Assembly: GCF_030463535.1 (NCBI RefSeq)
Contig: NC_132880.1
Location: 39,189,842 to 39,253,841 of the forward strand
Length of the DNA stretch: 64,000 nt
Source: Salminus brasiliensis
Taxonomy: Eukaryota; Chordata; Actinopteri; Characiformes; Bryconidae
Direction of reading: 5' to 3'
Below are positions 11,041-54,999 of this stretch, one piece after another; the first letter of the stretch is position 1, and each line of letters opens with the position of its first letter. A program made the position numbers and the translations under genes. The notes under the pieces were generated by a model. That model saw only the letters and a list, made by a program, of their open reading frames with translations. It had not been told where the DNA came from and did not search any database.

Positions 11041-13252
11041 CCCTCCATGTCATCACAAAGTGTTAGGATGGTGCTCTGGTCCCTCCAGAGTAAAACCAGA
11101 GAGTTTCTAAAATAAGAGGGGTGTTCTGTGGTGGAGCCTGTCAAAGTATTAAAAGTGCAATACTTTTCCTCTAACTCTAATACTAGTACTTAGTATTTTG
11201 CAATAAGTTTTGTTTTGATTAAGTAGATTAAATAATTGTTCATTATGTAGTGTAATGTCTGCTAAGCTGTAAAATGTGAACTGTTTGCCATAGTGTCATT
11301 TGCTATCAGGAGGCTACTACATCCTAGAACTTCATGCTGGTTTCAGAAGTCCTAACAGGTCCTTATGGCTCATTTATAATCCCACTGATCAAACTCATTA
11401 CAACCTTGCTCCGAAGAACTCAGCTCTGTGCTGAGGGGCTTTCTAGCCATGTAGCTGCAGCTTGGTCTTTTGGGCCAGTGGACTCCAGCACCTCTCTGAG
11501 AGCTACTTTCCTGCAAGTTTCAACTAACCCAAATGTAACACACCCTATTTAGCCAAATAAGGGCTACTAAAGGCCTTATGCTCATATGCAGCTCTGTTAT
11601 AATATCCCATTCTTTTGATGATGACCTATAGTGTATGTTCTGTTATATCAATCTTTAGGTATATACGATAAACCTAGAGTCTCGGTTTCTGCTGGTGCAA
11701 GGAGTGCCTGCTGTTGGGGTGATGACCGAGCTGGTGCAGCTCTTTGCTCTCTATGGAGTGGTTGAAGAGTACAGAGTACTGGATGAGTATCCTGCAGAAC
11801 AATTCACTGAAGTTTATCTCATTAAGTTCCAAAAGCTTACAAGTGCAAGGTGAGAATGAGACCTGTTACATGGTAAGATGTCAATTATCCAGCAGATGGG
11901 ATGGTTGTATTAAAAGTGACCTATGGGTGTTATTTAAAATGAGAATTGTTTGTTTCCGGTAATATGCATGCAATTTACTGTAGAATTACAAGAAAAGTTG
12001 ATCAGATAACATCATTTCAATGTTATCAGCTTTGTTTAAAGGTAAAATCTCAAAAATATATTTCAGTGAAAAGGCATCTACCATTAAACCATATAACATG
12101 CAATATAAAAATAGAAATTTAAAGGCTTTGAATTTGGAACCACCCTTTAATCTACATCTTGGAGAGATTGCTATGGCCAAGAAATCTTAAGGTGTGTGTT
12201 AATAGACAGATATCCCAAGACCCAGTGATAGCCGAGTATGATAGAAGTGTGGATTGTTTCAGGGCTGCCAAAAGGAATACAGACGAGAGAAGTTTCTTTG
12301 GGGGGCTGCTTCATGTGTGTTACGCCCCTGAATATGAGACAGTAGAAGACACAAGAAGGAAGTTACAGGACAGGAGAAGATATGTTACCACAACAGCTCG
12401 AAGATTAGGTATTTAATAAACTTGCCTACACTTTCTTTTGGTTTCTTTAATCCGTGTAACTAACCAGTTCGTACTGGTTTAACTACACCTTTGTTCCAGC
12501 AAAGGAACGTGAGCAAGAACAACCCACAGAGACAACACACTCTGACTGTGCAGAGACACCAGCTCCATCATCTGCCGAGTATGAAGACAGGACACATCCT
12601 CAAAGATCTCGAGAGGATAGTTCTAGTTCCAGCACTTCTCCTGGCTTTGCTTTATTGCCGTTGCCACCCCACGAAAGGGTTCCTCAGCAACATTTGTCAT
12701 CGAAATACTCGTTTAAATCTCAGAGTGTACATGGAGGCAGTGTACCTACAGAAGATAGGATGGGGTCCTTACACAGTTTCATCCCCAGTAGTGCCCCAGA
12801 CGATTGCAAGCAGACCTCACAATGGTCAAACCTGCCTTCCACAGGCAATGAAGAGAGAGAGAGTACCAGAAAACCAAAGAATCCTCCATCCACTACACCG
12901 AGGTTTATACCAAGGACTGCACACTTAGAAAACAGGAAAAGAAAAATGGAGGTCAGTACAGACTTGTTGGGGGTGGCAGACCGAAATGCCCCCTTGTATG
13001 GACCCAAACTACCAGAACTACCAAAGATGGACATGGAAGATGAATCATTAAACAAAACTGCAAACATAATCAGGCACACAATGGCAAAGGTTAGCTCTTT
13101 CACTTCTTTAATTTTATTGTTGATATAATATATATCTATATTATATGATATGAGTATATGGTGTTTGTTTATCTTGTATTTTTTTTCTTTAGGTTGTATC
13201 AGTTCCCTTAGAGAAGAAGACAACCACTGCAAAAGCACGACGAAGAATTTAA
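10522..13252 (+). CDS. rbm48: RBM48, RRM protein of the minor spliceosome, complete
   Basis: RBM48 works with ARMC7 in the minor (U12-type) spliceosome. Coding exons: 10522-10644, 11659-11849, 12263-12408, 12500-13089, 13193-13252; all have GT-AG ends and phases join to 369 residues plus stop, close to human length. Residues 1-41 include the family block KYREGRRPKAVK. The RRM (about 42-140) reads VYTINLESRFLLVQGVP in exon 2 and, in exon 3, the RNP1-like SFFGGLLHVCYAPE. Exon 4 is a long, Ser/Pro-rich low-complexity stretch containing FIPRTAHLE and [20 protein letters not shown], both family landmarks. The last exon gives the basic C-terminus KARRRI. The start is the first ATG after a GC-rich leader. 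Exon 4 also exists as a broken copy at 15601-16107. Confidence 0.96.
10894..10951. repeat. 15-bp tandem repeat, about four units, RBM48 intron 1
   Basis: The unit GTGAAGTCTACTAGG is repeated almost perfectly about four times. Confidence 0.95.
10998..11038. repeat. (CA)n microsatellite, RBM48 intron 1
   Basis: About 20 CA units. Confidence 0.97.
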
Positions 13253-13302
13253 TTTCCTCTGGCCTTCAGTGTGCAGTATTCACTGATGCACTGGAGCAGT
13301 GG

Positions 13303-13308
13303 TTTATT
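13303..13308 (-). terminator. Candidate EFCAB1 poly(A) signal
   Basis: TTTATT on the plus strand is AATAAA on the EFCAB1 strand, about 40 bp after its stop codon and about 50 bp from the RBM48 stop. Confidence 0.55.
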
Positions 13309-13346
13309 TGAAAATCACATCATTCGCTGTTCTTTACTTAAGTAGT

Positions 13347-14429
13347 TTAGTGATCTATTGACTCCTGGAATGCTTGTTGCTCAAATGCCAGAATACTCTG
13401 CAAAATAAACAAACATAGTAAGAGATTTATTTATTATTACAGCAAAATAAATGTTACATTTTAATGTACAAAACATTCAGAAGACCCGTGAATGTCATTA
13501 AAGCATTATTTCCTATTTAATTTGTAAAATCTTTTGACAAATATGAAAATAATATTATATGTTTAAAACAAATATCATGTTGCTGCTGCTGTCATACAAA
13601 TGACACCCATACAGAACATTTTCTCATTTACCTTTGCATCAGGAAGGCACGTTCCAAAAGCTTCCAATAACAGATTTTCATCTCGTACAGCCTTCTCGAA
13701 GTCAGCATATGAAAGTCTGCTGTCATGGTCATGGTCCTGAACACCGAAACCAGAAATAATTTTAGTGGATGTGTTAGTTGTTTGACTATGCCCAACTACC
13801 TCTCCATTTGTGGTCTCACCATTTTCTTCAGTATTATTTCCACAAGGTCCTTAATCCCTTCATCAGGTTCATCCTCTGTCGGCTGTCTGATCAGACTGTT
13901 CTTCAGCATGTGGAACATTTCCTCCCTCGATATGTACCCGTCTCCATTAAGGTCGTACACCTCGAAACAGTCTGGTCATTTGAGAGGGAAGAGCATAGAT
14001 TAAGAAGTGACCTGGAAATAATCTTATCACATAATTTACTCAGCCCAGTCTTACATTTGATCTTTTCATCCAAGGAGCCTCGAAGAAAGACTGACAGTCC
14101 TTCCACCCACTCCTTCACACTGATGTAGCTGTCGTTGTCGTTGTCAAAAGCGCGGAAAACTGTGGGTTGGAGAAATGTTAGCTTTGAAAACGCGACATTG
14201 GCTTCTGCATGCAGAATTAGTGCCCTACCTCTGTCCATAATCATGTCGTCGGTCAGTCCAAACGTGTTGTGAAGGATGTTTCGGAATTTTCCTCGGTCCA
14301 GGCCAGGCCCCACTCTCCTGTCAGTCTGCTCTCCCAACAACTCATTGAACAGTCGAATGAGGCACTCTGCCTCGGTTTTACTAACTGGAGAATGAGAGGT
14401 TTTCTGGTTATGGGCAGAATAGACTGAAC

Positions 14430-14468
<39 letters not shown>

Positions 14469-16626
14469 TGTAGATCAAAAAGTACTAAAGTAGTGAGTAA
14501 TGTATAGAACTGCTGATCATCTTCTCTTTTACGGTCTTGTTTTCATTTAAAATGGAATGATGGAATGATGAACTTTTGACTTACCTCAAAAGTTAGAGAA
14601 ATGACCATTTGCAAAGCAGTATAGATTGTCAACATATGTTGGCTGTACTAACATAAGAATTAAACACACAAACAATATTATTAAATGTTAAAAAAAAACT
14701 GTTTCATTTTCTCATCCTATAATGCTGCACATTTGCATGTCTCTCAATGGAGTAAGTTAATGACTAAGATGTAGTCCAGCTGTACCTAAAAGTAGCCTTT
14801 CTTGAGTGCATATAACTGCAGTTATTAGAGCTAGACACCCACCTAATAGTCAAAAAGCAACTGTTCTAGTGAGAAAACATTTGGACGTTTCTGATAGTGG
14901 TTATTTCACCTCTATCAACCAACAACGCTAACGTTGAACCTACACTACATCCACATGTTTTTGGACACCCCTTCCACCAAAAGCATTCAGCTACTTTATG
15001 TTGCACCCATTGCTGACACAACTGTCTAGTCCATGTTGAGAGGTATTACCAATAGGACTCTCTGGAGCAGATAAACATGAACCTGTTGGTACTGTGCCTG
15101 ATGCCAGACGTGGTCTAGTGGGGCTAATGCACCCCAGCATTAAGCAGTGGAGCAGTGTTATCTGGAATGATGGATAGTGCTCTATCCAGTACATTTGAGA
15201 TGAGCTGGGGATGGGGTGCGATGGTGATCACCCAACATCCTGATCTCCCTAATGCTCTTGCGGCAGTGCTCCAGTGCTCCAAACCCCAGTAGAAAGCTTT
15301 TTCCAGCCTGGATTAGTACAGGTCGTTACTCAAACGAACAAAAGCAGGATCAACTTTCTGAGTGCCCTTGATTTTGGGAGACACAATAAATAAGCAGGTG
15401 TCCCAATACTTTTGTCCATATAGTGTATTAAACGTGTGTATAGCGTTAATGTTTGAGTAATACTTTTTGTTAAGATAAACCAGCTTAGCTAACAGGAGTT
15501 GGAGGTCTCAGTAAAACATGACTGAAGGTGATTGGTTCTGGGGGGTTCAGGGGGGCTAAGCTAACTGATGAATGCTTTTAGATAAAGGTAGAGGGAAGCT
15601 CCTGGCTTTCCCTTGTTACCATTACCACCCCACTAAAGGGTTCCTCAGCAACATTTGTCATCTAAATACTCGTTTAAATCTCAGAGTGTACATGGCAGTG
15701 TACCTACAGAAGATAGGATGGGGTCCTTACACAGTTTCATCCCCAGTAGTGCCCCAGACGATTGCAAGCAGACCTCACAATGGTCAAACCTGCCTTCCAC
15801 AGGCAATGAAGAGAGAGAGAGTACCAGAAAACCAAAGAATCCTCCATCCACTACACCGAGGTTTATACCAAGGACTGCACACTTAGAAAAATGGAGGTCA
15901 GTACAGACTTGTTGGGGGTGGCAGACCGAAATGCCCCCTTGTATGGACCCAAACTACCAGAACTACCAAAGATGGACATGGAAGATGAATCATTAAACAA
16001 AACTGCAAACATAATCAGGCACACAATGGCAAAGGTACTAATACTTCTTTAATTTTATTGTTGATATAATATATATAAGAGTATATGGTGTTTATTTATC
16101 TTGTATAAACCAAAGGAACTTAACAGGAGTTGGAGGTCTCAGTAAAACATGACTGAAGGTGATTGGTTCTGGGGGGTTCAGGGGGGCTTAGCTAACTGAT
16201 GAATGCTGTTAGATGAAGGTAGAGGGAAGCTTTCATGGTTTACCGGGTTCACACTGTTTGAGAAAAGATTTCCAGGACTTTCCCATGACATTTTAAATTA
16301 TTTATCTAGATAGATATGCTAGCTATATTCCGGGCAGCAGACAGGCAATGATCATATTAAAAGCCTCTCAGTTTAAATTAATATTAACAGCTAGTATTAT
16401 ATGCTAATATTTTGACATGTCCAGCAGTCTTCTCTCAGTTTCCAGGTTTTTCAGATAGCTAGCTATCCTAGCTATAAGCTAGCCAACCCGCTAAGCTAGC
16501 CGATTGCTGAGGTTAATAAGTGCTAGATAATACTTCACCTGAATACTCACAGTGTTTAGCTTGTTTACACAGTTTTTCGGCCAGGTTTTGGTTCATTTTC
16601 TTGCTCATCGCCGACATCTCGCTCAT
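13347..16626 (-). CDS. efcab1: EFCAB1 / calaxin (CLXN), EF-hand protein of outer dynein arm docking, complete
   Basis: Calaxin is a calcium sensor in motile cilia and flagella that helps dock outer dynein arms. Coding exons, 5' to 3': 16551-16626, 14229-14384, 14055-14159, 13820-13971, 13632-13736, 13347-13397; phases join to 214 residues (human 211). Three EF-hand loops are visible: [24 protein letters not shown] and [12 protein letters not shown], each with acidic residues at the calcium positions. Other family blocks are [39 protein letters not shown] and [14 protein letters not shown]. The short last exon encodes a divergent tail ending ESIDH. Start: ATG at 16626 on a short first exon that splices in phase; a second in-frame ATG lies three codons on. 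Intron 1 (about 2.2 kb) holds a MITE and the RBM48 exon copy. The 3' end overlaps RBM48. Confidence 0.95.
13404..13409 (+). terminator. Candidate RBM48 poly(A) signal AATAAA
   Basis: First AATAAA on the plus strand after the RBM48 stop (152 bp downstream). A second AATAAA follows near 13445. Use of either would make the RBM48 3' UTR run antisense through the last EFCAB1 coding exon. Confidence 0.55.
14431..14466. repeat. (AT)n tract in EFCAB1 intron 1
   Basis: About 18 AT units, beginning some 45 bp upstream (EFCAB1 sense) of the exon 2 acceptor. Confidence 0.97.
14943..15425 (-). mobile_element. Full-length MITE (copy b) with both inverted ends and TA target site
   Basis: 483 bp, minus orientation. 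Left end CACTACATCCACATGTTTTTGG and right end CCAATACTTTTGTCCATATAGTG are the degenerate terminal inverted repeats. TA dinucleotides flank both (14941-14942, 15426-15427), as for Tc1/mariner insertion. It contains ATCCTGATCTCCCTAATGCTC, which corresponds to the transposase C-terminal coding part of a Tc1-like element. Confidence 0.88.
15490..15600 (+). repeat. 111-bp direct repeat, left copy, flanking the RBM48 exon copy
   Basis: Begins TAACAGGAGTTGGAGGTCTC and ends GTAGAGGGAAGCT. The same 111 bp recur at 16121-16231 with three mismatches that I can count. Confidence 0.95.
15601..16107 (+). pseudogene. Partial RBM48 copy (exon 4 and start of intron 4) inside EFCAB1 intron 1
   Basis: Corresponds to about 12641-13179 of RBM48. 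Identity is very high in the central part: long stretches of exon 4 are base-for-base the same. The copy carries intron 4 sequence (TTTAATTTTATTGTTGATATAA), so it came from DNA, not mRNA. It is dead: GAA became the stop TAA (15634-15636), three bases are lost near CATGGCAGTG, and 13 bases are lost near TTAGAAAAATGGAGG, which shifts the frame. The intron part also has deletions. It has no RRM, no promoter and no exon 5. It lies 2.3 kb from the parent in the same orientation, antisense to EFCAB1. Confidence 0.95.
16121..16231 (+). repeat. 111-bp direct repeat, right copy
   Basis: Second copy of the unit at 15490-15600; differences include GGGCTTAGC for GGGCTAAGC, GCTGTTAG for GCTTTTAG and GATGAAGG for GATAAAGG. 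A weaker match (ATAAACCA) extends a little further left of both copies. Confidence 0.95.
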
Positions 16627-17550: not shown

Positions 17551-20304
17551 TTAGAGGAACAGAGCTGTTTTCCTGGGACGAGCTGGAACATTCGAGTAGC
17601 CTTTCTTGCACTGGGAGTAAGTGACGTCACATTTGTAGCCGTATTCACAGCAGTGCTTTCCATCTTTACAGCACTGACCCTTGAAAAGGAAATGCAGCAG
17701 GAATATTACTTCAAACTGTGGAGGTGAACCAAAGGATATATAATATAATATATAATGAGAATAACAATGTATATTAATGAATTCATCAGCTTACCAGTTT
17801 ATAGGGGCAGCATCCCCACCCGCCAGTTGGTGCCTTGCAGCAGGTGTATTCAGCTGGGCAATAGAAGCGACCATTGCAGCGTATGACCCCTGCCTGGATC
17901 TGAGTGTCTAAAGCCAGCTCTAGGGGAACCATTGGAGTGTGCTGATCAAAATCACTCACACAGGCTCTGCTCTCCTCATCACAGTGGAATCCATTGGGAC
18001 AACAGCCTGTGTCACTTAGACAGCATTGGTCCTGCTGAAGGTATTCAAAGTATAGATTTAGCATGTAATACAGAAAGATCACCAAACCATTTGGCCTTTA
18101 AATGGTCTTTATGCTCAATTGAATTTTCTGTCAGATAGCTACACACTTCTCTATTCTTTTTATCTTAGTTTATAAAGCGCTGCAGGTACTGTTCCATTGT
18201 ACTGTTGGCGATGGCTATTCAGAAAGACTTGTCAAAAGCTGGTCATCCAGACGGAAGCATACCCTATGCTGGTAAGCTAGCTGCTGTTAACCAGCTCTTG
18301 ACCAGCATGTTGCATTTGATTTTGGTCATACTTGGTGACCAGCATGATCTTGCTGGTCACGCTGGTCATACTGCTGGTCATAACAAGCTTGACCATGCTG
18401 GTTGTGCTGGTTAATCAGCTTTGTCTTGCTGGTCGACCAGCATGGTCAAGCTTGGTCACGCTGGTTGTCTAGCTTGCTCAAGTTGATCATGCATGTAGAC
18501 CAGCTAAACCATCAAACTCAAAAAAAGAAAACACACCACATGCTGGCTAGGAGAGGTTCGGAAATGGTGCTACAAAGAGTGCCACAAAGGGTTCTTTGAG
18601 TGATGCCATGTAAGAACGATAAAGAACCATGTTTATAAGGGAAATAAGATTGTGAAGAACCGTCAAGGTGTAGGTTCTTTAAATAGCTCTTCATATTAGG
18701 CATCTGCACAGTACTGTATCTAGCTTTGTGAATGTGTGCGACTGAAATGATAATATGAAGATATGGAGTTTATTTCACATGAATGTTTTGTCACTGATGT
18801 TGATACACCAGGAAACTAAAGATGACCTTGATTATAAAATGGTTATCTTTATTGCCAAGCACACAGGAAGGTCCTTGAACGTCTGATCTACTGAGTTTCT
18901 TCATTTCTGCATTTGTAATTGAATGCAAGCTAAAACTGACTCCTGATCAGTATGCGTGAATCATGATGTTCTACTTCCCTTTTCTACTTTCAGTCTTTAT
19001 TATTTCTACTCTGGCAATGTTTAACGTCTTTCCGGTTCAACTGCAGAACAGTCACTGATCCAGATACTCCAGAGTAATAGGACTTTTTACTTCATAGCGC
19101 CTGCAGAACATTGGCTCGGTTATGTACTGCAACACATGCTACAACACACACAGTATGACTGCTCTTTCATATACCTGTTTGCTGTGGATTAGCATGGGAG
19201 CATGTGAAAGAGCAGCAGGCAGACTCAGCGCTCCCTTCAGGCAATGAGTAGATGTTCTGTCACAGTATAAACCATACGGGCAGCAGTGGAAGCCATCTGG
19301 ACAACACTGACCCTAGAAGAATAAATATGATGACTAAGACAAAGCCAAAACTAGAAAAAGCTAAATTGTACCCAAATGCTTTTGTATACCCACCATTCTG
19401 TAGATGCAGCAGGTCCACTGTCCCTGAGGGGTCCTGCAACACGTTGTATCATCAGGGCAGGTGTGGTAGTTGTCACAATGCACCACAGAAGGTGAGGGAC
19501 CAGACAACTCCACTGCAGAAGGCTTTTCCTCAGTCTCCTCAGCAGCTATCTGAGGGGACATTGGAAAGCTGTACCATGGCAGCCCCTGTTTCACACAGTG
19601 CTGACTCTGTTGGTCACATTGGAAGCCTTCTGGACAGCAGTGGGCCTTGTCCGGACAGCAGACCGCCTTAACAATGACACATATAGCAGGTTCATTAGAG
19701 TTTACTTAAAAACAGGAGTGGGCAATTCTGGTACTGGAGGGCTGGATTCTCTCACAATTTAGTGCTTTTCCTGCTCAAGCCCACCTGATTCAACTAACCT
19801 GTTTATTGACAGGTTTAGTAAGTTTGTTAGATCAGGGAAATCAGCAAACCGCTGTACTCTGGCCAGTGTTGCCCACCCCTGCTCTAAAAGTAGGTTTTCA
19901 GAATCTCATCCCACACAATACAATTCCAAAATACAGTGTGGTTCTTTAACTCCACAATTCTCATTATACATACATACATTAGTTTTGGCCCAACTTCTTC
20001 CCATAGGTCACTCTCTTTACAGAGCCTAGTGAGTATATATATATTATATATATATGTATACTCTACTATCATAACATTGATATCATGAACCTCAAGCAGA
20101 TCAAAATAGTTCAGCCAATAAGACAAATGCCCATAAAACCCACCCTAAACTCTATTTTAATGTAATGTGACAATCAGTGTTGGTCCTGATTGGAGTTTTG
20201 TTTGTGTGTTTATGTTGAAGGTAAGCAATGCATACCTGTAAAAATAAATAAATAAAAATTTATCACAAAAAATACTTACTTACTTACTCTCTCTCTCTCT
20301 CTCT

Positions 20305-20950: not shown

Positions 20951-23253
20951 TAAGTGGATGTGAACCTCACCCACACAGAAAAAAGAGGAAGTGATTCTTT
21001 GATGGCGGTGTTGTGGACACAGGCATTCGCCTGGGAGGTAAACTGTTAGAAAGGGGGAACTCCTCAGTGTTGCAAAGTGCAAGACATCTCGTCCTTTACC
21101 ACGCTGCCAGCTCTCCTGACAATGATGATGTAATGAGCATGTGTATCCATATCACAAGGAATCATAAACTGTAATGAATATAGGAGCCTGACTACACACA
21201 TCTTGATAAACATGACTGACCTTCTACTCTCTGAGTCACTGCAGTGATCATGGGAAAAGCGACTCTGTGACTGATGTGACTTCTAATGAGAAAATCATTT
21301 TGTAGTGGAAATCAAATGCCACAATATCAGCATAACAGGGCAAAGTGTGAGGAGCAGTAGGTGGCCTGGCACAGAGCATTTAGTTGTTTTGTTGAAATAC
21401 TGTTTTCTGTCAGTTTACAATAAGTTAAGTAAACTTTGTGTCTTTGTAAGTGCTATAAAATCAGACCTTGGTCAAAGTACAGGAGAAAAAAGGGGGCTTC
21501 TGGAAACATGTAAAAAAAAAAACCCCATAGTATTGTGTTTTATCCCGCATTTATAATACATGTGATAAAGGCCTGCATTATACCTTGGGAGCCATACTAT
21601 ATCCCACAAGTCCAACACATCCCCTTGTTGTGATGTTAGCACTCAAAGCTCTCTGCTGTTAAAATGGTTTGGAATAGAAAATAACCATTTCAATTCAAGT
21701 GTATATACAAAGTGCTTTTATCAGAGATCTGGGTCTAATCCTTAGGTGAGTGAACCAATAGCGACAGTGACAGGAAAAGCTCCCTTAGAGCGAGAAGAAG
21801 AAACTTTAAGAGGAACCAAGACTCAAAAGAGGAACCCATCCTCCTCTGGTTGACACAGGATAGCACAACAGACAACGAAACAAAATCCAGAAATGAAGAA
21901 ATAGCTAAGAGATACATGGTAATCAGAAATGAAACAGACATGCTCAGATTTAACCTCTGAAAACATGTTACTAATGTTAGCAGTCTTGTCCCTGGAAATG
22001 AAGATTGAGTATATGGCTGCCATGTTAATATGAATGTGTAAAGAGCTCAGTATAATTAGTTCTGTTAGTAGTAATGGTTTTAATAAGAGTCTACACAGTG
22101 ATCAGTCTTATCAGGGGGATAAATAAGTGTCTCATGCTAGTGAGGTTTTCTTGGCTTGGTCGTATGGTGAATGGCACTTGCAGTCTGTTCCATGGTGGTC
22201 GGGTCAGTCTGGACAGCAGGCCGCAGGGAAATCAAGGTTGATCGTACACCAGCAGCAACCCAGATAGGAAAAGACAGCACATCACAGACAGTAGGATTGT
22301 GTTTGAGTGTGGACAGTGACTCCAGCAGGCCTTGCTGTAACTGATTGCCAAAAACTTGACCAAACAAGTATGTTTTCGGCCTAGACTAGGTCTAGACACT
22401 GACTGAAAGACAATTGTAAAGCTAGAGGGCTTTGAAGGTTAAAGCTCTTCCCCTGCAGTAGCATTAATAAAGCAGTATAGTAAGAGGCCAGCATCTTGTG
22501 ATCTTAGATCCTAGCTCTTATTAGGAGCTGCTAGCTCTTATCAAGCTGCTGTGTCCTTATAATGCATACATATTCACAATACATTTACATGAAAGGGCAG
22601 ATGGAAAAATCCAGTTGCTTAGTGTACAGGGTGTGATAGAGGACAAATCACAATCAAAACTGGTCCACCAGTTGACTAAATAAAAGCAACATGGCCTTCG
22701 CTGTAGCGTCTGTCGTTACCCGGCTTGATTGACCTGTCCGCAGGTGCTAAACTAAACTTATATGTCGATTCTCAATCTGCGCTCTTGTCTGTACTTGTGT
22801 TCTTGTGAACTGGTGAAACGTCATCAATTGCAACCCAAGTACTGCTCCATTCTAACGCTCACGTCTGGCCAAGTACAGTCTGATGTGTTCTTGTGCCACC
22901 CGTGTTATCGAGGATGCATGAGGATGTGATGTGTGTGCACTTGGCCCAGACAAATATCCCAGAATGCATTACGCACCAATCTGCTTTTCTAATTGCAACA
23001 TTTTCGTACAGCGTCCTCCCGTACTCGGGAGTTTGTATTCGTGAGTTGAACTTGACAAGTCAGTTCTACCACGTATACCAGTCCGAACTTGACATAATTA
23101 GTATTGAGAATCTGCCACACTGTTGAAACACATGCAGTCCACATCGGCTAGCGTCGTAAAAAGTAACTGACATGTAGACATGCGTGAAGGTTTGCACATA
23201 TGTAGGTAGGTTGTACAAAGCTAGCTAGGCAATATTTTGGAATTGCTATATGG
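20951..23253. other. Intergenic, nothing recognised
   Basis: Upstream of granulin. I see no splice-consistent coding sequence, RNA gene or known repeat with confidence. The stretch 22740-23110 is GC-richer than its surroundings and contains no long open frame with a recognisable product. Confidence 0.5.
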
Positions 23254-23361
23254 TATGAGATTCTGAAAACCTACTTTTAGAGCAGGGGTGGGCAACACTG
23301 GCCAGAGTACAGCGGTTTGCTGATTTCCCTGATCTAACAAACTTACTAAACCTGTCAGTAA
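23254..23361 (+). repeat. Arm 2 of the long inverted repeat
   Basis: ATGAGATTCTGAAAACCTAC to ACTAAACCTGTCAGTAAGC is the reverse complement of 19801-19908, 3.4 kb away on the other side of the granulin 5' end. Confidence 0.9.
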
Positions 23362-24325
23362 GCAAAGATAGCTAGCTTTTGTGTTACGTTAGGAAACACG
23401 CTGTGGCACATTTTTGAATGCAACCTCACACAAAACGCGTAGCTTGAAGCGTCTGCAAATGTTTTGGGCCCAAAACACAAGTATTGCAAAACACAGTCAG
23501 ATTATTAGCACACAGTTGTTTGGTTTTTTTTTCATTTTGTTTTGTGCAAGAACGTTCCTTTGGTTTTGTTCCTTTTTAATTAATACTTAGAAACTACATA
23601 CTTGGAAAATGTAAAAAGAAGGAGTGCAGAGTCCCTGAATCGTTACAGGACAGTGTAAATCACATTCATAACGGCGATCCTTGGCCCCCAAAAGATCAAG
23701 AAGTATTTCACAATGCTTGACTCCTGCAACCTTATGTTGTATTTCCCTTTTTCAATTCTGGATGGTTACTTCCTTCAGTGCTCGGAATAAAGACTGTGTG
23801 TTGGAGAAACCACGAGACTGCAAGTTCATAGAGTGCGCAGAGTTGGATCCCATCCTGAAAATCCAGACTTCCTGAGATCATTGGAAGAGTGTGACCTCTC
23901 AAAAATAGTTACTACAACTCTAAACTACTCTAAAGACCATTAAACTGATTCATCGCCTCTTCTGGAAGAGTTAAGGCTTACACATTTGTTTTATGCTATT
24001 AGCACTAATTAATTCCAGCTCTTGTAACTCTTAAGTGTCTACATCTTTCTTCAGCATTGCCTGGAGAAACGGAGCCAGCCAGCCTCCCCATTTGATCTAG
24101 TGTAGAGTTCCAAATCCGAGCCAGTCATCTTCTTCTAGCAATGAGGTGACATTTATTTATTGCTTTCTTCCTTCATGCACTGAGCGTGCCAACCTTCTGT
24201 CCCTGCCCGGTTCCTGAGTGGAACAGTCCTGAATCCTAACATCCTTGTAGAAATCATATTACATCTTTCTGATTTCTAATTCTTAATATCAACACTAATG
24301 TTACTTATGATTTTGGACAAAAGTA
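23362..24325. other. Intergenic, nothing recognised
   Basis: AT-rich with T runs near 23521. No gene, RNA or known repeat seen. Confidence 0.5.
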
Positions 24326-39536: not shown

Positions 39537-41326
39537 AGCCCAGTGATGAAGATGAGGAACAGGATTGTAGTGTGTTAGCGATGAAGATGATGAGGAGGAG
39601 TGCAGTGTATTAGTGATGAAGATGAGGAACAGTATTGCAGTGTGTTAGCGATGAAGATGATGATGAGGAGTGCAGTGTATTAGTGATGAAGATGAGTAGT
39701 AGGAGAGCAGTGCGTTAGTGATGAAGATGAGGAACAGGAGTGCAGTGTGTTAGTGATGAAGATGAGTAGCAGGAGTGCAGTGTGTTAGTGATGAAGATGA
39801 GTAGCAGGAGTGCAGTGTGTTAGGGATAAAGACAAGATGAAGGAGAGCAATGTGCTAGTGATGAAGATGAGGAGGAGAAGTGCAGTGTGTTAGTGATGAA
39901 GATGAGTAGCAGGAGTGCAGTGTGTTAGTGATGAAGATGATGAGGAGGAGTGCAGTGTGTTAGTGATGAAGATGATGAGGAGGAGTGCAGTGTGTTAGTG
40001 ATGAAGATGAGGAGCAGGAGTGCAGTGTGTTAGTGATGAAGATGAGGAACAGGAGTGCAGTGTGTTAGTGATGAAGATGAGTAGCAGGAGTGCAGTGTGT
40101 TAGTGATGAAGATGAGTAGCAGGAGTGCAGTGTGTTGGGGATAAAGACGAGGTGAAGGAGAGCAATGTGCTAGTGATGAAGATGATGAGGAGAAGTGCAG
40201 TGTGTTAGTGATGAAGATGAGTAGCAGGAGTGCAGTGTGTTAGTGATAAGGATGAGTAGCAGGAGTGCAGTGTGTTAGTGATGAAGATGATGAGGAGGAG
40301 TGCAGTGTGTTAGTGATGAAGATGAGTAGCAGGAGTGCAGTGTGTTAGTGATGAAGATGTGTAGCAGGATTGCAGTGTATTAGTGATAAGGATAAGGAGC
40401 AGAGTGCAGTGTGTTAGTGATGAAGATGATGAGGAGGAGTGCAGTGTATTAGTGATGAAGATGAGTAGTAGGAGAGCAGTGCGTTAGTGATGAAGATGAG
40501 GAACAGGAGTGCAGTGTGTTAGTGATGAAGATGAGGAACAGGAGTGCAGTGTGTTAGTGATGAAGATGAGTAGCAGGAGTGCAGTGTGTTAGAGATGAAG
40601 ATGAGTAGCAGGAGTGCAGTGTGTTAGTGATGAAGATGAGTAGCAGGAGTGCAGTGCGTTAGTAATGAAGATGAGTAGCAGGAGTGCAGTGTGTTAGTGA
40701 TGAAGATGAGGAACAGGAGTGCAGTGTGTTAGTGTTGAAGATGATGAGAAGTGCAGTGTGTTAGTGATGAAGATGAGGAGCAGGAGTGCAGTGTGTTTAG
40801 TGATGAAGATGATGAGGAGGAGTGCAGTGCGTTAGTGATGAAGATGAGTAGCAGGAGTGCAGAGTGTTAGTGATGAAAATGAGGAATAGCATTGCAGTGT
40901 GTAGGTGATGAAGATGAGGAGTGCAGTGTGTAAGTGATGAAGACGAGGAGGAGGAGTGCAGTGTGTTAGTGATGAAGATGAGGAGTCCAGTGTGTTAGTG
41001 ATGAAAATGAGAAGCAGGAGTGCAGTGTGTTAGGGATGAAAATGAGTAGCAGGAGTGCAGTGTGTTAGGGATAAAGACGAGGGGAAGGAGAGCAGTGTGC
41101 TAGTGATGAAGATGATGAGGAGAAGTGCAGTGTGTTAGTGATGAAGATGATGAGGAGAAGTGCAGTGTGTTAGTGATGAAGATGATGAGGAGAAGTGCAG
41201 TGTGTTAGTGATGAAGATGAGGAGCAGGAGTGCAGTGTGCTAGTAATGAAGATGAGGAGCAGGAGTGCAGTGTGCTAGTAATGAAGATGAGGAGTGCAGT
41301 GTGTTAGTGATGAAGATGAGGGGGAG
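39537..41326. repeat. Minisatellite, about 50 copies of a ~35-bp unit
   Basis: Almost 1.8 kb of units such as TGCAGTGTGTTAGTGATGAA followed by GATGAGTAGCAGGAG (35 bp). Variants include GATGATGAGGAGGAG and GATGAGGAACAGGAG, with unit lengths of about 28-38 bp. Blocks of variants recur in the same order (a TAAAGACGAGGTGAAGGAGAGCAATGTG-like variant occurs near 39830, 40140 and 41070), pointing to higher-order duplication. The unit length is not a multiple of three and each unit has stops, so it is not coding. Confidence 0.97.
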
Positions 41327-41340
41327 GAGAGCATGGGTGT

Positions 41341-41346
<6 letters not shown>

Positions 41347-54351: not shown

Positions 54352-54507
54352 ATTAAAGTTTATTGGTGACATATGTAGTCGGAAACTGAGAAAACAGTAG
54401 ACTGATTTGTCTAGTACTGTCCAAACATGTAAAACAAAATAGAAGATGATGAAAAATATAAAAGTCAAAAAATAAAGATGGGATTAATCCTTATTTGATT
54501 TAAATGG

Positions 54508-54580
<73 letters not shown>

Positions 54581-54853
54581 CGAGAGAGAGAGACATAGAG
54601 GCAGGGAAGATTGTGGATTATTCATGCCAGAAACCACATAAATATGTAAATAAATAGGTGGAATAAATAAGTGTTTTTATTTACATTAGAATTAAAGTTT
54701 ATTGGTGACATATGTAGTCGGACACTGAGAAAACAGTAGACTGATTTGTCTAGTACTGTCCAAACATGTAAAACAAAATAGAAGATGATGAAAAATATAA
54801 AAGTTAAAAAATAAAGATGGGATTAATTTGATTAAAATGGGGTATATATATAT

Positions 54854-54904
<51 letters not shown>

Positions 54905-54999
54905 GAGGCAGGGAAGATTGTGGACTATTCATGCCAGAAACCACATAAATAAGTAAATAAATAGGTGGAATAAATAAGTGTTTTTATTTACATTAGAAT
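54352..54999 (+). repeat. Tandem duplication of a 0.3-kb unit (54352-54690 and 54691-54999)
   Basis: Both units start ATTAAAGTTTATTGGTGACA, share GACTGATTTGTCTAGTACTG and the (AT)n(AG)n core, and end TTTTTATTTACATTAGAAT. Apart from microsatellite length, only a few bases differ. About 2 kb upstream of the CDK6 start. Confidence 0.95.

Follow-up and report, generated by a model that had tools for sequence, protein, structure and literature searches.

A truncated RBM48 pseudo-exon between long direct repeats in EFCAB1 intron 1 of Salminus brasiliensis: a probable product of proximal repair-mediated duplication

Gene setting of the locus

The window, meaning the whole 64,000-nucleotide stretch of Salminus brasiliensis DNA analysed here, contains RBM48 on the plus strand and EFCAB1 (calaxin) on the minus strand, arranged tail to tail. 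The stretch at 11659-11850 (plus strand) matches a PDB chain named 'RNA-binding protein 48' (E 9e-27), as does the RBM48 exon stretch at 12502-13092 (same chain, E 2.4e-10), while the minus-strand neighbour gives matches to 'Calaxin' and 'EF-hand calcium-binding domain-containing protein 1' (E 7e-25 and 5e-24). Among five stretches submitted to Pfam, EF-hand models were returned for two, both of them pieces of EFCAB1; the other three, two from RBM48 and one from EFCAB1, had no Pfam match.

Parts of a paper on progranulin (PMC4527844) list rbm48 and efcab1 among the genes that neighbour short-form granulins in fish, and the granulin-like cysteine-rich open reading frames found in the window from about 17500 onwards fit that neighbourhood. 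By eye, the minus-strand open reading frames at 17551-18097 carry cysteine patterns resembling those of granulins. The parts of PMC4527844 in question cover the gene neighbourhood and not the insert described below.

Read by eye, exon 1 of EFCAB1 is placed near 16550-16620 and the exon after it near 14250-14390; the interval 15475-16231 is therefore inside EFCAB1 intron 1, the splice sites of which are ordinary in appearance by the same inspection. The order at the locus is A-B-C-A'-C'-D, made up of the following features.

12500-13089, plus strand: donor exon, the second-to-last RBM48 exon seen (splice signals read by eye)
12638-13179, plus strand: donor segment (A), the 3' part of this exon and the next intron minus its last 13 bases (by alignment to 15599-16106; RBM48 identity from the PDB matches, exon borders by eye)
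13090-13192, plus strand: RBM48 intron after the donor exon (read by eye)
near 14250-14390, minus strand: next EFCAB1 exon (read by eye)
15475-15600: left acceptor-site repeat (C), consisting of ATAAACCA, an unmatched 7-bp block and a 111-bp core at 15490-15600 (leftward extension beyond the core putative)
15599-15600: junction 1 (C to A'), 2-nt microhomology CT; acceptor end ..AAGCT, donor TTCT/CCTGG (from sequence context)
15599-16106, plus strand: inserted copy (A'), a putative truncated pseudo-exon with a stop and a frameshift, antisense to EFCAB1 (by alignment)
15664-16036, plus strand: central tract of A', 373 aligned bases free of substitutions relative to RBM48 and with 3-bp and 13-bp deletions inside (by alignment and random placements)
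16105-16106: junction 2 (A' to C'), 2-nt microhomology AT; donor ..TTGTAT, acceptor ..TAAGAT/AAACCA (from sequence context)
16105-16231: right acceptor-site repeat (C'), consisting of ATAAACCA, an unmatched 8-bp block and a 111-bp core at 16121-16231 (by sequence comparison)
near 16550-16620, minus strand: EFCAB1 exon 1 (read by eye)

An RBM48 copy in the neighbouring intron

The inserted copy aligns with its donor over 508 bases, 494 of which are identical and 14 substituted; with gaps counted, the BLAST identity is 91.1%. Relative to RBM48 the copy has four deletions (3, 13, 4 and 14 bp), each flanked by matches of 1-6 nt at its ends. A sequence-only reading of the window had reported a copy at 15601-16107 taken from 12641-13179, carrying a stop and a 13-bp deletion. 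The copying and both lesions are recovered in the alignment, with GAA changed to an in-frame TAA and the frame shifted by the 13-bp deletion, whereas the limits move to 15599-16106 and 12638-13179. The copy begins inside the RBM48 exon and the splice acceptor is therefore absent; its end falls at the onset of the intronic T-rich tract of RBM48, 13 bases short of the next exon. Judged by its sequence, A' is a pseudo-exon.

Donor and copy lie on the same chromosome, approximately 3 kb apart from start to start; B, which separates A from C, measures approximately 2.3 kb. Intron sequence is kept in the copy, and the template was therefore DNA or unspliced RNA. This bears out the earlier proposal of a transfer across about 2.3 kb with the intron retained, and hence no source in spliced RNA. 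Inspection of the locus revealed no poly-A at the copy. A LINE-mediated processed pseudogene, or any other retroposed spliced RNA, was rejected as an origin on the retained intron together with the lack of poly-A and of a short target duplication. The protein of the RBM48 exon had no confirmed relative among five pattern matches in viral_contigs or 58 in genome_contigs, which are viral and prokaryotic collections and thus little informative for this question.

Long direct repeats around the copy

The cores at 15490-15600 and 16121-16231 are direct repeats of 111 bp with 97.3% identity (BLAST E 2e-47). BLAST and alignment both confirm the three differences between them noted from the letters alone, which fall at 15558, 15577 and 15584 in left-copy positions; the left 68 bp of the two cores are identical. 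The description of the copy as exactly bracketed by these repeats holds on the left and fails on the right, where 14 bp (16107-16120) intervene between A' and the core. The similarity also reaches further left than the cores. The motif ATAAACCA is present at both 15475-15482 and 16105-16112, followed by a block that does not match between the two sides, of 7 bp (GCTTAGC) on the left and 8 bp (AAGGAACT) on the right. Because ATAAACCA stands to the left of both cores, the duplicated acceptor unit would comprise 126/127 bp, made up of ATAAACCA, the unmatched block and the core.

We also sought another small template from which the unmatched 8-bp block might derive, and rejected this idea: a 9-bp match, CAAAGGAAC, occurs at 12500 and is meaningless, as 810 of 2,000 random 20-mers from the window reach matches of at least 9 bp. 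The C region folds no better than its shuffles (z 0.24; 114 of 200 at least as good), and the idea that the acceptor DNA is structured was rejected on this result. When the window was searched with C, the matches other than its two copies were all 12-14 bases long (best E 0.02), and a pattern derived from C had no relative in viral_contigs, a viral collection that is little informative here. The window contains 16 direct-repeat alignments in which the copies are 20-2000 bases apart; a single minisatellite accounts for 11 of these, and just one of the 16 encloses a copy of another stretch of the window.

Adjoining the insertion site, at 14940-15435, is a MITE-like element; its ends (CTACACTACATCCACATG..CATATAGTGTATTA) are roughly inverted, and it has relatives at other places in the window.

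Differences between copy and donor cluster near the junctions

The substitutions separating A' from RBM48 are unevenly placed. None of the 14 is more than 70 bp from one of the two new junctions, which gives 14 substitutions in 135 junction-near aligned bases and none in the central 373. None of 200,000 random placements produced a substitution-free run as long as the observed 373 of 508 aligned bases. A Fisher test of the clustering gives 1e-8, a value that is inflated since the 70-bp limit was picked after seeing the data. The clustering is real. Its cause may be that an older copy underwent conversion in its middle, or that a young copy was mutated near its junctions. Of the two options in the sequence-only reading, a young event or gene conversion, the first disagrees with 14 in 135 against 0 in 373 if divergence is taken to be uniform; age combined with conversion, or mutation at the junctions, agrees with these counts.

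An old event, after which gene conversion with RBM48 homogenised the centre, is a plausible account that we hold tentatively; it is compatible with proximal repair-mediated duplication of the locus. The contrast between the 373 bases free of substitution and the flanks is what such a history would leave. Furthermore, six of the eight exon substitutions change the third base of a codon (P 0.02, a count that includes the third-position change of codon GCT/CCC), and the same six are of synonymous type (P 0.004-0.016, depending on the transition/transversion weighting), as if the divergence had partly arisen in the working gene. On the other hand, the identical left 68 bp of the C cores would have escaped divergence too, hence a second conversion would be required, and the 3-bp and 13-bp deletions sit within the supposedly converted tract.

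A young event with error-prone synthesis around both junctions, also compatible with proximal repair-mediated duplication, is possible but rather doubtful. In its favour, the 14 substitutions and the unmatched 7/8-bp block fall within 70 bp of the junctions, as do the three C/C' differences if they arose in the left copy, where they would lie 16-42 bp from junction 1. In the left cluster, moreover, parent G differs in 6 of 13 cases against 2 of 55 for the other bases (P 0.0004, in a test chosen post hoc). Against this history, purely random error-prone synthesis would not favour third codon positions as seen in the exon part, and the distance to a junction is 94 bp for the 3-bp deletion and 222 bp for the 13-bp deletion. 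These two of the four deletions, both inside the substitution-free centre, are poorly predicted by simple conversion and by junction-only error alike, and in this respect they count against the repair reading as a whole.

Proximal repair-mediated duplication as the probable origin

The insert probably arose by germline proximal repair-mediated duplication, through template switching or a widely staggered break. This interpretation is based on the layout, the short microhomologies, the retained intron, the proximity of the donor and the lack of any further match in the own genome, where a search with the 742-bp unit (both core repeats inside) returned two matches, itself and RBM48; this search skips very common words, such that its counts are lower bounds and diverged or short lone repeat copies may be missed. 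A break repair or template switch that duplicated the acceptor locus, as the sequence-only reading had suggested, is supported in that A-B-C-A'-C'-D is the order which such an event leaves.

The event may have begun with a break with staggered ends (about 126 nt), or with a stalled fork, in EFCAB1 intron 1. A 3' end would have left acceptor segment C at the 2-nt CT match, used as template about 540 nt of RBM48 lying approximately 3 kb upstream on the same chromosome, and returned to the start of C at the 2-nt AT match, after which C would have been copied again to yield A-B-C-A'-C'-D. By an alternative route, staggered ends of about 126 nt would have been filled in and joined through the templated insert. 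From the present arrangement we infer the involvement of staggered ends or template switching, the order of the steps, and a single C before the event, that is, an empty site. The 2-nt matches are weak evidence for any single mechanism.

The locus shares much with the proximal duplications of Pace et al. 2009, parts of which (PMC2671141) report 824 such events in human and 80 in zebrafish, with donors at less than 5 kb, inserts of up to 619 bp and microhomology of 2-9 nt. Here too the donor is within 5 kb, the copy is 508 bp long, exon and intron were copied together without poly-A, 2-nt microhomology is found at both junctions with an unmatched 8-bp block near junction 2, and the insert matches one other place, RBM48 (own-genome counts being lower bounds). 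In those parts of PMC2671141, target duplications accompany 6 of 39 examined proximal cases and measure 4-21 nt over Table 1, which is an observed range and not a requirement, whereas the acceptor duplication here has a 111-bp core and about 126 bp in total. A landing-site duplication several-fold longer than these values favours a widely staggered break or a fork at which this site was copied a second time. The acceptors described there (PMC2671141) are interrupted transposable elements, in contrast to the intron stretch hit here, for which the whole-unit search gave no further match.

The locus can also be compared with insertions with tandem duplication at staggered breaks in rice (Vaughn and Bennetzen 2014, as cited in parts of PMC7407515 and PMC5730883), for which both local and ectopic donors are reported, and with the duplications that paired nicks induced in mouse cells (Schimmel et al. 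2017, from parts of PMC5730883). In these systems, as here, the acceptor is duplicated at the break, which the same sources explain by offset nicks in opposite strands. The local donors in rice are at most 200 bp away against approximately 3 kb here (PMC7407515, PMC5730883), and the experimental overhangs in mouse are 46 nt against about 126 (PMC5730883). A further comparison is with FoSTeS/MMBIR as outlined in parts of PMC8421209, where a polymerase departs, copies a nearby template and re-enters at microhomology. The 2-nt match at each junction agrees with the microhomology expected at switch points but is too short for specificity, and FoSTeS/MMBIR, synthesis-dependent annealing and end joining are indistinguishable here without an empty allele.

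The locus is thus most likely a new case of a known repair by-product, with an unusually long landing-site duplication. We consider it unlikely that it represents either repair with about 126-nt staggered ends, a template some 3 kb distant and a dense halo of mutation at both switch points, or a pseudo-exon still exchanging with RBM48.

Other origins

The same order could have been reached in two steps, by tandem duplication of the approximately 3-kb A-B-C segment (12638-15600) followed by loss of the approximately 2.3-kb B from the second copy. This scheme yields the observed arrangement exactly, the C to A junction being that of the duplication and the A to C junction that of the deletion, each with a 2-nt microhomology, but it requires two events where one suffices, and no remnant of a second B lies between A' and C'; we regard it as improbable. 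An assembly or polishing artefact, in which the copy was misjoined or falsely homogenised, is very improbable: reads from RBM48 that mapped to the copy could, in principle, have made its centre uniform, yet the window lies in a 52.5-Mb contig of a 1.07-Gb assembly, and the separate junctions and deletions are unlike a duplicated assembly block.

LTR retrotransposons and TRIMs are defined by repeats ending in TG..CA and by a target-site duplication of 4-6 bp. A gene fragment between long direct repeats does recall the layout of TRIMs, but a mobile element of LTR, TRIM or other terminal-repeat type with a captured RBM48 fragment is scarcely credible, as the cores run TAACAGG..GGAAGCT, the flanks (CTTAGC on the left, TTCATG on the right) form no short duplication, and the whole unit was matched nowhere else in the own genome (lower-bound counts). 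The LTR retrotransposon and TRIM classes were rejected on their repeat ends, target-site duplication and dispersed copies, the last as judged by the whole-unit search. No repeat family was seen with the whole 742-bp unit as query under the same lower-bound counts, and the suggestion of an unknown element carrying the exon is not supported by these results.

Significance and other features of the window

The locus offers a readable example of how imperfect repair places exon pieces into neighbouring introns in fish, and its sharply clustered differences make it, in comparison with related species or alleles, a small test case for gene conversion versus mutation during repair. If exchange were ongoing, the pseudo-exon could pass its stop and frameshift back to RBM48, approximately 3 kb away.

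The window contains further repeated sequence. From the offsets in a self-BLAST, 39542-41341 is a minisatellite of about 35-bp period and about 1.8 kb in length. An adjoining tandem duplication of approximately 310-340 bp (54352-54692 and 54691-54999), 88.6% identical in its aligned part, includes TA and GA microsatellites. Finally, two inverted 134-bp copies with 94% identity are found 3.3 kb apart, at 19800-19933 and 23233-23364, and may represent either an interspersed repeat or a further proximal duplication.
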